DNA from: Variovorax sp. V93
GTDB lineage: Bacteria > Pseudomonadota > Gammaproteobacteria > Burkholderiales > Burkholderiaceae_C
Assembly (NCBI RefSeq): GCF_041154485.1
Contig: NZ_AP028669.1
Coordinates: 1,116,001-1,180,000 of the forward strand
Length of the DNA: 64,000 nt
Reading direction: 5' to 3'
The first letter of the stretch is position 1. The number at the start of each line of letters is the position of its first letter. Positions 32,128-37,430 of this stretch are shown one piece after another. The translations under genes and the position numbers were made by a program. Under the pieces are notes generated by a model. It did no database searches, was not told where the DNA came from, and saw only the letters and a list, made by a program, of their open reading frames with translations.

Positions 32128-33258
32128 ATGGACACAAATGTCATAAACCTCATCCAGAGAGCCCCGGCTGCGAACGATTCGGGTTTTTTTGCGCGCAGCT
32201 ATCCCGCGAGCGAGGCGCCCGCCAGTCATTTAACAAATGAGCAAAATCTGTTAACCCTTTTTGTCAGCGACCTTTCCAAAGGGTTGATGCAGGCAGAAGC
32301 GGCGCGCGTGCAGCGCGGCGAAATCGGACGGCCGACCTGGCAGGTGATGGGCAACAGATTGCGCGCGCACATCATTCCTTTGCTGGGTGCCGTGCCGGCG
32401 CAGGCATTCGCTACTTCCGATGCGCAGCGCCTGATCGATCACCTTGGCGCGCAGGGCTTCACCAGCACGACGATCGCGCAGTACCTTGTGTTGCTGCGAA
32501 AGGTGTTGATGCACGGTGTGAACATCGGCGTGGTTCGCGATGTACCTGCCTTCCCGAAGGTCAAGGTGCGCAGCCAGCCGCGCGGAAGCTTCAGCGTTGC
32601 GGAATACCGGGCCGTGGTGGCGGCTGCACGGCGACTGCGCGGGCAGCCGCATCCGGTGCTCGATGAACTGGCCTCCGGCGAGCGCTTCTGGATCGCGCGC
32701 GAGCTGCTCGTCATGCCGCAGGAGTTGCCCTGGCTGATCCGCTGGATGGTCAACACCTTCGTGCGCCCGAGCGACATCAAGCTGATGAAGCACCGGCACA
32801 TCGACATCGTGCGCGGCAAGCATGTCTACCTGCGCATGAACCTGCCCGAAACCAAGCGGCACAGCCAGCCCATCGTGAGCCTGCGCCCGGCGGTGCGGGT
32901 CTATGAATGCCTGCTTGCGCACCGTCGCGAGCAGGGCTTTGGCGGCGCGGATGACTACATCTTCATGCCGCAACTGAAGAACCGCGAGCACGCGCTGGCC
33001 GTGCTCAACTTTCTTTTCCATTGGGCGCTGGAAGCAACGTCGCTCCAGAAAGGGCCGCAGGGCCAGTCGAGGACGCTTTACTGCTTGCGCCATACCGCCA
33101 TCACCTTGCGGCTCTTGTACGGGCAGGGCATCGACATGCTGACCTTGGCGCGCAATGCGCGCACGAGCGTCAACATGGTCGAACGTTTCTACGCGTCGGT
33201 TCTGAGCGGAGAAATGAATGTGGGCTTGCTGCAAAGCAGGCGCGGCCGCGCGAACTGA
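32128..33258 (+). CDS. Orphan tyrosine recombinase/site-specific integrase (376 aa)
   Basis: A SAM-like N-terminal core-binding region (about 40-140, GLMQAEAARVQRG through HGVNIGVV) precedes the catalytic domain. The catalytic residues visible are R213 (FVRPSDIK), R321 and H322 (LYCLRHTAITL) and the nucleophile Y355 (VERFYAS). The HxxR box reads YCLR, and the late GH position is replaced (NARTSVNM), a form shared with a group of uncharacterised proteobacterial recombinases. No excisionase, tRNA, att repeats or phage genes flank it, so it may be a domesticated or stranded recombinase. It diverges from ilvA over an AT-rich segment. Confidence 0.85.
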   Translation: MDTNVINLIQRAPAANDSGFFARSYPASEAPASHLTNEQNLLTLFVSDLSKGLMQAEAARVQRGEIGRPTWQVMGNRLRAHIIPLLGAVPAQAFATSDAQRLIDHLGAQGFTSTTIAQYLVLLRKVLMHGVNIGVVRDVPAFPKVKVRSQPRGSFSVAEYRAVVAAARRLRGQPHPVLDELASGERFWIARELLVMPQELPWLIRWMVNTFVRPSDIKLMKHRHIDIVRGKHVYLRMNLPETKRHSQPIVSLRPAVRVYECLLAHRREQGFGGADDYIFMPQLKNREHALAVLNFLFHWALEATSLQKGPQGQSRTLYCLRHTAITLRLLYGQGIDMLTLARNARTSVNMVERFYASVLSGEMNVGLLQSRRGRAN

Positions 33259-33264
33259 GCAAAG

Positions 33265-33297
33265 CCAAAAAGCCGCCCGGCTTGCGCTGGGCGGCTT
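33265..33297 (-). terminator. Rho-independent terminator of the left porin copy
   Basis: On the minus strand AGCCGCCC and GGGCGGCT form an 8-bp GC-rich stem with a 10-base loop, followed at once by TTTTT. It lies about 50 bases beyond the stop codon of the minus-strand porin copy and is oriented to end its transcript. Confidence 0.8.
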
Positions 33298-33349
33298 GGG
33301 ACTGGACCGATTCGAACTGGCTGAAGCCAGCATTGGAATCAGGCCGCGA

Positions 33350-34552
33350 TCAGAAAGCGTGGCGGATGCCGAAGTCGTAGCCGGTCGAGGTCTTCGGGGT
33401 GAAGACGTTGTTGCTGATGAACTTCGGGCCGCCAACGGTCAGGGCTGCACCGTTCTTGTTGCTCACGCGAGCGATCGTTGCGTACAGGGCCGTGCGCTTC
33501 GACAGGTTGTGCACGTAGCCGAGCGCCAGCTTGTTGGCCTTGCGGTCCGGTTCGTCGAAGAACGGATTGTTGTCGTCCGTCTTGTACGTCACGGCCGAAT
33601 ACGATGCGCGGATCAGACCGGCACCCACAGGCGCCGTCACGCCCAGCAGCCAGCCGTTGAGCTTGTTCGATGCCACGGACGCCGGTTGGACGAAGAAGTC
33701 GCCGTCGATGTCGGTCTTTTCCTTGGCCCGAGACAGTTCGCCGAAGAGCTTCACGGGACCGAAGTCATACGAAGCGCCGAGGTTCAGTGTATTGACCTTG
33801 GTGGTCGTGCCGGCGTAGTAGTCGTCGCCGACGGTGTTGCTGCCATAAGCCAGCGCAACGTCCAGGGGGCCGTTGGCGTAGCCGAAGCGGCCGCCGACGT
33901 ATCGGCCGGTGCGCGAATTGTTGACCGCATGAGGCGTGGCCAGGGCAGGGCTGTACTTGTCCTTTTCATGGAAGCCGTACTGCAACTGGCCATAAAAACC
34001 GCCGAGGTTTGGCGGCAGGAAGTAGCCGACGGTGTTGCTGGCGCGGGTGGGGTTGCCGAATGCACCGGTAGCCGTCTGGATCAGGTTGGTGCCAACGCCG
34101 TTGGCGCCGAACGGATCGAACACGGTGTTGTTCCAGAACGATGGGGTGTAGTCGCGGCCGAGGCGGACTTCACCGAAACCACCCGACAGGCTCACGGTCG
34201 AACGACGGTTGAAGGTTGCAACACCTTCCGAGCCGTCGTCGTTCTTGATCGGAGCTTCGAGCCAGAAGCTGGCTGCCAAGCCGCCGCCGAGGTCTTCCGT
34301 GCCACGGAAGCCGAGTTTGCTGGAGTTGTAGGCCGAGTTGGCCAGTTCACGGCGGCTGACCCTGACGCTGCCCTGGTTCACATAGAACGGGTTGTAGGCA
34401 ACCGGGAAGCCGAGGGCGTTGTACGTCACGCCGTGGTTCAGGTCACGCGAGCTGTTCGAATAGCCGCTGATCGACGCATCGACCAGGCCGAACAGCGTGA
34501 CGGACGACTGGGCCGAGGCAACACCGGCAACAGCCAGGGCAGCCAGAGCAAC
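33350..34552 (-). pseudogene. Porin gene copy lacking start codon and signal-peptide start
   Basis: From base 34552 down to the stop this frame encodes 400 residues of a trimeric Gram-negative porin (Porin_4 type), nearly identical in large blocks to the intact porin at 36186-37430: the signal core LALAVAGVASA, SSVTLFGLVDASISGYS, RLGRDYTPSFWN and the final beta strand GYDFGIRHAF. The copy begins exactly at codon 6 of the intact gene. The first five codons (MKKSL in the intact copy) and the upstream promoter region are replaced by unrelated sequence with an in-frame TGA at 34559-34561. The first in-frame GTG (34429) would give a protein with no signal peptide. The body is intact and unfrayed, suggesting recent loss, a silent cassette, or an assembly error. 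Confidence 0.8.
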
Positions 34553-34603
34553 TGCCCTTCAGGCCCAAAAACTAGAGTGGACCCGCAGCGCCGCGGCCCC
34601 CCC

Positions 34604-34638
34604 AAAGAAAAAAGCCCCGAGCCTTGCAGCTCGGGGCT
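34604..34638 (-). terminator. Terminator hairpin just upstream of the broken porin copy
   Basis: On the minus strand AGCCCCGAGC and GCTCGGGGCT form a perfect 10-bp stem with loop TGCAAG, followed by TTTTTTC. It points toward the broken porin and ends about 50 bases before the porin homology begins, with no gene to its right that it could serve in this orientation. It looks like the end of a transcript now missing. Confidence 0.75.
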
Positions 34639-34811
34639 AAATCCACCAATTGGAAGGGTGGAGGAGACAACCGGTGCGCACGGTTTCGTACGCGATGAAA
34701 TAAAGTATATCGGTTGTTTGTTGCGTTGCAACAAGCAAGTGACGATTTCCCCACACACTAATGGATGTCGGCGTGATTTTTTGCCGAACATCCTGAATGG
34801 ATCTGACACAG

Positions 34812-35261
34812 ATGGAATGCACAGTAAGTTGGACCGGCGATGCCGGAACCCGCTCGGCCATGGGTTTCGTGGCCGAGACCGGCAGCGGCCATGTCTTGAT
34901 GATGGACGGCGCGCCGGATGCCGCCAAACCCGAGAACGGCGGCCAGAACCTGGCGGCCAGGCCCATGGAAACCGTGCTCGCCGGCACCGGGGGCTGTACC
35001 GCCTATGACGTGGTGCTGATACTGAAGCGAGGCCGCCACCGCGTGGAGCGCTGCAGCGTCAAGCTGACCAGCGAACGGGCAGAAAAGGATCCCAAGGTGT
35101 TCACCAAGATCCACATGCACTTCACCGTGGCGGGCAAGGGCATTCCTGCCGCCGCCGTCGAGCGTGCGATTGCCCTGAGCCACGAAACCTACTGCTCGGC
35201 CAGCATCATGCTCGCGAAAACCGCCGAGATCACCACCAGCTTCGACCTGATCGAAACCTGA
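34812..35261 (+). CDS. OsmC-like family protein (about 149 aa)
   Basis: OsmC/Ohr-fold proteins are small cytosolic dimers, many of them cysteine-based peroxidases for organic hydroperoxides. The two family cysteines are seen in LAGTGGCTAYDVVLIL and SHETYCSASIMLAKT. The opening MECTVSWTG, a first beta sheet and NLAARPMETVLAG agree with the family. The start at 34812 is preferred because relatives begin at MEC; an ATG five codons upstream (34797) is an alternative, and neither has a strong ribosome-binding site. It lies between the two inverted porin copies and converges with coq7. Substrate not known. Confidence 0.85.
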   Translation: MECTVSWTGDAGTRSAMGFVAETGSGHVLMMDGAPDAAKPENGGQNLAARPMETVLAGTGGCTAYDVVLILKRGRHRVERCSVKLTSERAEKDPKVFTKIHMHFTVAGKGIPAAAVERAIALSHETYCSASIMLAKTAEITTSFDLIET

Positions 35262-35273
35262 GCCCGCCAAGCC

Positions 35274-35903
35274 TCAGATCCGGTGCGCCACCGTGGTCAT
35301 CACGCGGGAGGCGAGCCGCATCAGGGCCTTGGCCGGCGCCGGCAGTTCCGCCGCGCCGGCATCGACGGCCTGCGCGGCGTGCCGCGCCTCGTCGATCTTC
35401 ATCTGCTCGACTACCGCCCGGGAGGCACTGTCGGCGGCCGGCAGGCGGCCGAGATGGCTCTCCAGGTGGGCTTCCACCTGGCGTTCGGTCTCCGCGACGA
35501 ACCCGAGGCTCAGCGGGTCCCCCAGGCGTCCGGCCATCAGGCCCAGGCCGAAAGCTCCGGCATACCAGAGCGGGTTCAGCACGGAAGGCCGGGCGCCGAG
35601 TTCGTCCAGCCGCTGGCGCGTCCAGGCCAGGTGATCGGTTTCTTCGTGCGAGGCTTCGAGCAAGCGGGCCCGGAGGACAGGATCGCGCGCCACCGCGGCC
35701 TGGGCCGTGTAGAGCGCCTGGGCGCACACCTCGCCCACGTGGTTCACCCGCATCAATGCCCCGGCCTCGCGCCGTTCCGAATCAGTCATCTCGCCGGGCG
35801 CCTGGATGGGCGCAGGCGTGGCCCGCGTTGCATGGGGCCGGGCAAAAAGAGTGCGCAATGCCGCATCAGCCGCAGCCAGGACGGGGTCGAGCGTGGAAGT
35901 CAT
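35274..35903 (-). CDS. coq7: Ubiquinone biosynthesis 3-demethoxyubiquinol hydroxylase Coq7 (209 aa)
   Basis: Coq7 hydroxylates the quinone ring in the penultimate step of ubiquinone synthesis with a carboxylate-bridged diiron centre. The ligands are visible in [38 protein letters not shown] and [11 protein letters not shown] hydrophobic segment [16 protein letters not shown] fits the membrane-associated helix. The first 40 residues are a longer, Ala-rich extension common in Burkholderiales. It converges with the OsmC-like gene and diverges from the intact porin. Loss or inversion of this segment would affect respiration, so the gene is likely under strong selection. Confidence 0.94.
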
Positions 35904-36185
35904 GCCCGTATTTGAACGTATGCGGAAAGAGCAGCGCGAAACAGTTGCTTCATTTCATATGGTGGTTTGTGAGCGAGCCAAAGTCCTTTGTTGCAGGACT
36001 GCAACGAAACGCAGGGGCCACTGGAGATTTCGGGCGATTTGTTTTGCCCTGCCGCAGCGGCTCTGGTGCAATAGCATCAACTTCCCAAAAGGAGGTTGGC
36101 CCGGGGTCCGGTGGGAGCACAAAAGTGCCAGTCACGGTGAGCCCTTCGCACCGGAGCCCTATGTTTAACCTTGGAGAAACTTGCA
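35904..36185 (+). promoter_or_regulatory. Upstream and leader region of the intact porin gene
   Basis: These 282 bases separate coq7 and the porin. They contain a perfect small hairpin GTTGCA-GGAC-TGCAAC at 35990-36005, further GC-rich fold-back sequence near 36095-36170 (GTGGGAGCAC, GTGCCAGTCAC) and a good ribosome-binding site GGAGAAA 8 bases before the ATG. A promoter must lie here, but I cannot choose a -35/-10 pair. None of this sequence is found in front of the left porin copy. Confidence 0.4.
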
Positions 36186-37430
36186 ATGAAAAAATCTCTA
36201 GTTGCTCTGGCTGCCCTGGCTGTTGCCGGTGTTGCCTCGGCTCAGTCGTCCGTCACGCTGTTCGGCGTGGTCGACGCGTCGATCAGCGGCTATTCGAGCA
36301 CCTCGCGTGACCTGAACGGTGCCACGTTCCTGAACCCGTTCTACCTGAACCAAGGCAGCGTCAAGGTCAGCCGTCGTGAACTGGCTAACTCGGGCTACAA
36401 CTCCAGCCGTCTGGGCTTCCGTGGTACGGAAGACCTCGGCGGTGGCCTCGCAGCCAGCTTCTGGCTCGAAGCCCCGATCAAGAACGACGACGGCTCGGAA
36501 GGTGTTGCAACCTTCGCTCGCCGCTCGACCGTGAGCCTGTCGGGTGGTTTCGGTGAAGTCCGCCTCGGCCGTGACTACACCCCCACGTTCTGGAACGACA
36601 CCGTGTTCGATCCGTTCGGCACCAACGGCGTTGGCAGCAACCTGATCAACACCGCCAACAACACCTTCGGCGCGTTCGGCACCCCCACGGCTGCCGTCGG
36701 CTCGTTCACCAACGTTGGCGCCAGCAACTACGTTCGCGCCAGCAACACCATCGGCTACTTCCTGCCGCCGAACCTGGGTGGTTTCTACGGCCAAGTGCAG
36801 TACGGCTTCAGCGAGAAGACCAAGTACGATCCGGGCACCGCTACGCCGACCACCGCGAACGCTTCGCGTCAAGGCCGTTACGTTGGTGGCCGCTTCGGCT
36901 ACGCCAACGGTCCTCTGGACGTTGCAATCGCTTACGGCAGCAGCACGGTTGGCGATCAGTACTACGTTGGCACGACCACCAAGGTCAACACGCTGAACCT
37001 CGGCGCTTCGTATGACTTCGGTCCCGTGAAGCTCTTCGGTGAAGTGTCGAAGGCCAAGAACAAGGTCGACTACGAAGTCGAACCGTTCCTCGGCGGCCGT
37101 CCTGACGTGGACCTCACCGGCTACCTGCTCGGCGTGACCGTGCCGGTCGGTGCTGGCCTGATCCGCGCTTCGTACTCGCACGTCAAGTACGACAACAACG
37201 CACCTGTGGTGTTGTTCGCTCCTGCCGTCGAAGATCCGAAGGCCAACAAGCTGGCTCTGGGCTACGTGCACAACCTGTCGAAGCGCACGGCTCTGTACGC
37301 AACGATCGCTCGCGTGAGCAACAAGAACGGTGCAGCCCTGACCGTTGGCGGCCCGGCCTTCATCAGCAACGGCGTCTTCACCCCGAAGACCTCGACCGGC
37401 TACGACTTCGGTATCCGTCACGCTTTCTAA
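36186..37430 (+). CDS. Gram-negative porin, intact copy (414 aa)
   Basis: A 16-stranded trimeric outer-membrane porin allowing diffusion of small solutes. The signal peptide (MKKSLVALAALAVAGVASAQ) is cleaved near residue 20. The mature start SSVTLFGVVDASISGYSS, constriction-loop region RLGRDYTPTFWNDTVFDPFG and terminal strand GYDFGIRHAF with final Phe are typical of the OmpC-like porins of Burkholderiales. Codon use is biased to GTT, GCT, GGT and TCG compared with neighbours, a sign of high expression. The start is supported by GGAGAAA at good spacing, and a strong terminator follows the gene. A near-identical broken copy lies in inverted orientation 1.65 kb away. Confidence 0.95.
   Translation: MKKSLVALAALAVAGVASAQSSVTLFGVVDASISGYSSTSRDLNGATFLNPFYLNQGSVKVSRRELANSGYNSSRLGFRGTEDLGGGLAASFWLEAPIKNDDGSEGVATFARRSTVSLSGGFGEVRLGRDYTPTFWNDTVFDPFGTNGVGSNLINTANNTFGAFGTPTAAVGSFTNVGASNYVRASNTIGYFLPPNLGGFYGQVQYGFSEKTKYDPGTATPTTANASRQGRYVGGRFGYANGPLDVAIAYGSSTVGDQYYVGTTTKVNTLNLGASYDFGPVKLFGEVSKAKNKVDYEVEPFLGGRPDVDLTGYLLGVTVPVGAGLIRASYSHVKYDNNAPVVLFAPAVEDPKANKLALGYVHNLSKRTALYATIARVSNKNGAALTVGGPAFISNGVFTPKTSTGYDFGIRHAF

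Follow-up and report, generated by a model that had tools for sequence, protein, structure and literature searches.

Why should a bacterium keep, close to a normal porin gene, a second full-length porin body that has no start codon? The question is raised by a stretch of 64,000 nucleotides from Variovorax sp. V93 (contig NZ_AP028669.1, positions 1,116,001 to 1,180,000), hereafter called the window, in which two inverted porin genes, porL and porR, enclose an OsmC-like gene and coq7 and lie beside a gene for a predicted tyrosine recombinase. The locus is very probably a site-specific porin switch run by this adjacent recombinase. One copy only has the leader, ribosome-binding site and start codon, and two full bodies face this start from opposite sides. 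In the proposed mechanism, the recombinase would cut both copies at the sequence TGCTCTG, the spacer of a crossover site within their signal-peptide codons, and would turn round the osmC-coq7 segment along with the start, so that the start would be joined in frame to the other porin body. The body left behind would become start-less and would be insulated by a small-RNA terminator. The benefit may lie in a changed solute selectivity, or in changed recognition by phages or predators. The role of the recombinase as the catalyst, and the occurrence in Variovorax, the rate and the benefit of inversion, are points that we infer.

Two porin bodies and a single start

Both genes of the inverted pair encode Porin_4 proteins (Pfam E-values 6e-57 and 3e-66), and the whole genome contains six matches to this family. 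The inverted arms are found at the 5' ends (34436-34553/36200-36317; 118 nt, 96% identity), within the bodies (34055-34393/36333-36671; 339 nt, 89% identity) and at the 3' ends (33349-33541/37239-37431; 193 nt, 94% identity). These arms and the genes between them bear out what an initial annotation had described, namely an inverted porin pair around an OsmC-like gene and coq7, nearly identical at the 5' start (about 5 differences in 118 nt) and with a long identical stretch close to the 3' end. Its account of the left copy as open-bodied and start-less also holds: the signal-peptide codons of porL contain no ATG, GTG or TTG, and an in-frame TGA lies just before them, two codons away from the first codon shared with porR. 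The latter starts at ATG 36186, beginning MKKSLVALAALAVAGVASA. The description of porL as silent rests, at the level of sequence, on its missing start and leader. Beyond the initial annotation, the locus contains the recombinase gene, flanked by ilvA on one side and porL on the other. It also has an Rfam small RNA (34669-34607) between osmC and porL, directly upstream of porL and ending short of it. The features of the locus are as follows.

32128..33258, plus strand: tyrosine recombinase of 376 amino acids, proposed porin invertase (AlphaFold2 model, Foldseek, invariant residues)
33266..33301, no strand: terminator-like hairpin between the 3' ends of the recombinase and silent porin genes (AAGCCGCCC...GGGCGGCTTTTT, read directly)
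33350..34552, minus strand: silent porin body porL, open and start-less (Porin_4)
34536..34558, minus strand: candidate silent-side crossover site AGGGCAGT / TGCTCTG / GCTGCCCT, 7-bp spacer at 34550-34544 (site comparison)
34551..36202, no strand: predicted invertible segment of about 1.65 kb, spacer to spacer (proposed here; inverted form in a Ramlibacter contig)
34607..34669, minus strand: Betaproteobacteria toxic small RNA RF02278 with terminator (Rfam, 63.4 bits, gathering threshold 50)
34797..35261, plus strand: OsmC-like gene inside the segment (PF02566)
35274..35903, minus strand: coq7 inside the segment (PF03232)
36076..36185, plus strand: expressed-porin leader, strongly conserved in the 20 loci compared (locus comparison)
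36186..37430, plus strand: expressed porin porR, start and signal peptide intact (Porin_4)
36203..36209, plus strand: expressed-side spacer TGCTCTG in the signal-peptide codons (spacer comparison)

A proposed crossover site and its candidate recombinase

Silent and expressed copies become alike at a 7-bp spacer in the signal-peptide codons, which mostly reads TGCTCTG, and the boundary falls at this same spacer in several genera. The spacer is followed by GCTGCCCT in Variovorax and by GCTACATT in many Limnohabitans, and the site of the silent copy frequently has the inverted arm. The strength of these arms varies among silent sites, from pronounced (AGGGCAGC/GCTGCCCT and AATGTAGC/GCTACATT) to absent; 41 distinct silent sites have a mean of 4.4 complementary positions out of 8, versus 3.8 when shuffled.

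The spacer comparison drew on loci in which a single silent porin is paired with a single started one. Of 39 distinct pairs, 37 have the same spacer in both copies, and these include four variants (TGCCTTG, TGCACTG, TGCTTTG and CGCTCTG) that are matched likewise. One of the two mismatching pairs (L215) is real; in the other (L193) a 9-nt insertion shifted the comparison to the wrong heptamer, and the site reads TGCTCTG. The likeness continues beyond the spacer. Over the next 45 nt, copies of the same pair differ by 77 mismatches versus 305 in shuffled pairings (36 pairs), and the 25 Variovorax-type pairs by 19 versus 54.8, with none of 10,000 shuffles as low in either comparison. All 42 recombinase-bearing genomes with a match have TGCTCTG as the expressed spacer, versus 25 of 52 others (Fisher 3e-9), a count made by hand from the best match per genome, in which related genomes are not independent and the match in module-less genomes may not be the coq7-linked porin.

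The recombinase is present in 45 of 101 Variovorax genomes, and the locus is readable in 41 of these; the four others are split over two contigs (G010), reach contig ends (G078 and G029) or have porL deleted (G062). All 41 readable loci have the order ilvA-recombinase-porL-osmC-coq7-porR start in the same orientation, followed by dppB in 38, the contig ending within porR in the other three (G066, G086 and G097). No in-frame ATG occurs within 40 codons before the signal-peptide cleavage point of porL in any of the 41, and the porL body is open in 39, the exceptions being G077 and G084. A junction motif, AGGGCAGYTGCTCTGGCTGCCCTGGC, searched for with up to 3 mismatches allowed, is found once per genome in 42 of the 101 genomes, and its backwards control in none. 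The carriers are 41 of the 45 recombinase-bearing genomes versus one of the 56 others (G083); the motif is missing from the same-species genome G063 because of a 9-nt deletion. In the four module-less Variovorax genomes examined, ilvA directly adjoins the small RNA, the RF02278 sequence of which is also visible there. Some individual genomes show peculiarities of their own: G032 has an N at the site in the porR start, G084 has short tandem duplications near the start of the expressed copy (L100:5180-5420), possibly an assembly problem, and G017 has a second full porin, with 95% DNA identity to its switch porin, 160 kb away and without the module (L050:5075-6337).

The AlphaFold2 model of the window recombinase has a pLDDT (predicted local distance difference test) of 79.5, and Foldseek matches it in the PDB, at probability 1.00, to Tn1549 Int, Cre, lambda Int, XerA and the integron integrase IntI. 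R213, K243, R321 and Y355, which we take to be the catalytic Arg, Lys, Arg and Tyr of tyrosine recombinases, are invariant in an alignment of 32 sequences. As judged from the model, the product of 32128-33258 belongs to the Int/Cre/Xer tyrosine recombinase superfamily. A PDB sequence search gives weak matches to two integrase-domain entries, and some relatives score weakly against phage-integrase domains; the window recombinase itself matches no Pfam family at 1e-3 and no NCBIfam family. Relatives number zero in IMG/VR and a phage collection and five in a plasmid collection, all remote and each covering under half of the query, so there is no sign of phage or plasmid carriage in the collections searched. 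The N-terminal part of the recombinases of L158, L160 and L163 resembles Phd/YefM antitoxins, in agreement with the source name of one relative (P0031) and with a precomputed domain of another (P0048), PF02604.

The inverted state appears in Ramlibacter, a genus in which recombinase relatives occur in 6 of 60 genomes. Contig L211 (longer as L294) contains, in order, the recombinase, a porin with ATG and leader, coq7, osmC, a terminator that by eye is small-RNA-like, a start-less porin and dppB. Its middle is inverted relative to Ramlibacter L209 and L292 and to Variovorax, giving one inverted and two standard genomes in Ramlibacter, the inverted one being a single metagenome-assembled contig. 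At the junction the two porins of L211 share just the 12 bp AGTTGCTCTGGC, and elsewhere they have no common stretch longer than 15 bp. Since so little sequence is shared, neither repeat misassembly nor homologous recombination is an easy explanation.

Relatives in other genera

A scan of genome contigs gave 179 recombinase relatives, from which 80 loci were kept, in Variovorax, Pseudacidovorax, Xenophilus, Ramlibacter, Limnohabitans, Polaromonas and others. Porin 5' regions that lie no more than 700 nt from a recombinase mostly have no ATG in the interval 14-40 codons ahead of cleavage: this holds for 64 of 78 distinct regions, and 13 of these 64 carry a GTG or TTG at 16-30 codons. The 14 regions with an ATG comprise eight normal MKK-type starts (L211, L220, L235, L273, L275, L276 twice and L279) and six in which the ATG lies elsewhere. 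Farther from the recombinase, 35 of 38 porin 5' regions have an ATG, and the three that do not belong to the silent copy of the inverted Ramlibacter locus, to the decayed copy of G083 and to a further start-less porin, in L243. Identical regions were merged in these counts, which left out 11 of 147 porin open reading frames (ORFs), with an N-terminus beyond the profile, and ORFs cut by the contig start. When the recombinases themselves are counted, some genomes standing under two locus names, 91 of 114 ORFs have a porin within 1.5 kb, on the opposite strand in 86, and one has a porin farther away.

A recombinase relative of any score is present in 49 of the 90 Limnohabitans genomes. Of 20 places fetched, all 17 at 573 bits or more have a start-less porin adjoining the recombinase, and the three at 391-486 bits have no porin. 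Three Limnohabitans genomes have their only pattern-fitting started gene and the silent copy inverted, 13-14 kb apart. Limnohabitans parvus has one started porin, three tandem start-less porins in direct orientation, each with its own recombinase, and a fourth that is inverted; the integron likeness is confined to this tandem array. The array (L161:2600-19500 and L162:1-5300) has a spacing of about 7 kb and diverged porin bodies, and its repeated 2.1-kb block consists of a 147-amino-acid ORF, the recombinase and the site, with further ORFs without assigned function; neither the recombinase nor three ORFs of the array have a match in PADLOC. In the same genome region (L161:433-1662) an AAA_14/DUF4143 ATPase, which has the PADLOC match PDC-S01, is found between osmC and coq7. 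In L276 and L279, which come from another family of bacteria, a recombinase relative lies between two inverted porins with both starts intact and signal peptides alike.

It is somewhat more probable than not that the system is family-wide, combining a tyrosine recombinase with a start-less porin body and using the signal-peptide codons of the host porin as the crossover site. Such a system would yield pairs in inverted orientation, segments that enclose both bodies, or tandem arrays resembling integrons, and would let the Comamonadaceae swap the displayed pore, a possible phage receptor.

Selection, rival explanations and known switches

Sequence that is never expressed should drift towards a ratio of nonsynonymous to synonymous substitution rates (dN/dS) of 1. 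Intact silent bodies have a median dN/dS of 0.315 (609 pairs, dS < 0.8), and expressed bodies 0.375 over 998 pairs; among the closest pairs the values are 0.08-0.31 for silent (14 pairs) and 0.21-0.45 for expressed bodies. The intact silent bodies are thus under purifying selection. These ratios, like the tree and the window test described below, do not include the copies of G077 and G084, in which the frame is broken, or certain copies that are cut or gapped. Where the recombinase is damaged or missing, the silent copy is frequently damaged as well: G083 has zero recombinase matches and retains porL only as fragments, in G062 the recombinase is cut at residue 224 and porL is deleted, and G077 has a stop at codon 125 of the recombinase and at codon 42 of porL. 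The suggestion in the initial annotation of a porin switch with a silent cassette is therefore strengthened by the conserved start-less state, the selection on the silent body, the matched spacer, the inverted relative and the joint loss with the recombinase.

Porin bodies have also been exchanged or homogenised between the two positions. In a tree of 87 porin bodies, which contains long branches, the silent/expressed label changes nine times, at least six of these changes being forced by well-supported branches, and the silent and expressed copies are sisters in G061 (L088) and in Pseudacidovorax (L153). When silent bodies are compared in short windows, the unique best match is the own expressed copy in 147 of 1508 windows and that of the nearest relative in 45, the chance value being 32.8. 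The tree in particular speaks for an exchange of porin bodies between the two copies over evolution; the window test is not counted among the main arguments.

Such exchange is what would be expected if RecA-type gene conversion, or an inversion by homology, drew on the start-less copy as its donor, with the recombinase as a bystander. The initial annotation had indeed suggested that the inverted copies recombine with each other or undergo gene conversion. The extended inverted homology found in the window agrees with this, as does a comparison with the same-species L087, in which the expressed porins differ in discrete tracts at window positions 36380-36870 (94.3% identity) and the silent porins are 99.2% identical; no donor was found for the tracts that differ between the window porR and L087. 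However, the silent copy and the recombinase occur together, and loss of the recombinase accompanies decay; the same 7-bp spacer marks the boundary in several genera, and the inverted Ramlibacter pair shares no more than 12 bp at its junction. A dedicated tyrosine recombinase that acts at a short site in the signal-peptide codons fits the evidence better, and the homologous route is unlikely. Alternatively, the recombinase may mainly integrate and excise porin cassettes in the manner of an integron, the inverted pair of Variovorax being one frozen outcome. The L. parvus array, with one started porin followed by direct start-less porins that each have a recombinase, is of this form, and many loci have none of ilvA, osmC, coq7 and dppB nearby. 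Yet the copies are inverted in the window, in all the readable Variovorax loci, in several relatives and in the three further Limnohabitans genomes; inversion is the expected outcome of this arrangement, and an inverted state exists in Ramlibacter, all of which makes an integrating role a quite improbable explanation. A decayed duplicate or an assembly error, both raised at the outset by the initial annotation, would account for a copy without start or leader, and some draft contigs do break or carry an N in these porins. The same start-less copy is nevertheless seen in 41 Variovorax genomes, some of them single-contig, and so is due neither to chance nor to assembly; with 39 of these bodies open and dN/dS well below 1, this explanation is scarcely credible and was rejected.

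A number of observations weigh against a switch run by the adjacent recombinase. No flipped locus occurs among the 41 readable in Variovorax. This uniform orientation makes a freely reversible switch near equilibrium unlikely there, so that switching would have to be biased, rare or induced, and for the window species we infer inversion from sequence. An in-frame GTG or TTG is found within 40 codons before cleavage in 12 of the 41 Variovorax porL, at 18-21 codons in two of them (G017 and G067), and these codons may serve as weak alternative starts in the 12 genomes. The recombinase has an invariant Y318 and N343 (32 sequences) where the box II His and the box III His/Trp of tyrosine recombinases are expected. 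Because these positions vary among known tyrosine recombinases, the assignment rests on the fold and the other four residues. Loss is not always joint: the recombinase frame of G084 is uninterrupted yet porL is frame-broken, and in G007 a stop interrupts the recombinase frame close to its N-terminus although porL is open. The window test is uneven, about 6 of 37 genomes giving most of the signal (sign test p 0.076, Wilcoxon 0.022). Among the relatives, 22 of the 114 recombinase ORFs have no porin in the fetched stretch; these include fairly close relatives on long stretches (L159/L238, 537 bits) and distant ones (L274, L280-L282), and L293 and L342-L344 likewise have no porin near the recombinase relative. 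Start-lessness is also not universal, since recombinase relatives in other families of bacteria can adjoin porins with intact starts.

Porins are among the principal gates of the outer membrane, and phages commonly use them as receptors. If the switch is real, a built-in porin swap would give clonal populations in soil and freshwater a standing variation in uptake and phage sensitivity, of a kind that annotation would easily overlook, given that the spare copy lacks a start codon. The locus also supplies a compact and testable recombinase with a mapped candidate site. A porin switch of this kind is absent from the titles and abstracts of the literature searched, the scope of which excluded most subscription papers and preprints.

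Related arrangements are known for other surface proteins. In the vsa locus of Mycoplasma pulmonis (recombinase HvsR) and the vpma locus of M. agalactiae (recombinase Xer1), a tyrosine recombinase gene lies beside the locus (PMC2268961). At vsa, inversion supplies the 3' part of a silent surface-protein gene with the one promoter, the ribosome-binding site and the 5' end of the coding region, and at vpma and vsp it sets one promoter before a silent gene; the constant coding region of vsa is 714 nt, whereas the vpma sites are upstream of the start codon (PMC2268961). The porin locus resembles vsa in its adjacent tyrosine recombinase, its one complete 5' end, its silent copies without leader, ribosome-binding site or start, and its short shared site at the boundary. 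It differs from vsa and vpma in that it concerns an outer-membrane porin, usually has two bodies and has its site in signal-peptide codons, and in that its host is a free-living betaproteobacterium and its recombinase is outside the Pfam and NCBIfam families. By analogy, the logic of the porin locus would be that of the M. pulmonis vsa switch.

In Lactobacillus acidophilus, the expressed and silent S-layer genes slpA and slpB are swapped by inversion. The likeness lies in the pairing of an expressed with a silent surface-protein gene, although the product is an S-layer protein and not a porin, and we know of no adjacent dedicated tyrosine recombinase in that system. In the sap S-layer locus of Campylobacter fetus, silent cassettes in inverted orientation flank an invertible segment that carries the only promoter. 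This locus is thus similar in having the sole promoter on an invertible segment, and different in its dependence on RecA and on a long shared 5' homology. Finally, the G segment of phage Mu, inverted by Gin, fuses a constant 5' end to alternative bodies, and in this it resembles the layouts of Polaromonas (L220) and some Limnohabitans, in which both bodies are inside the segment; Gin, however, is a serine recombinase, and the bodies are those of tail fibres rather than porins.

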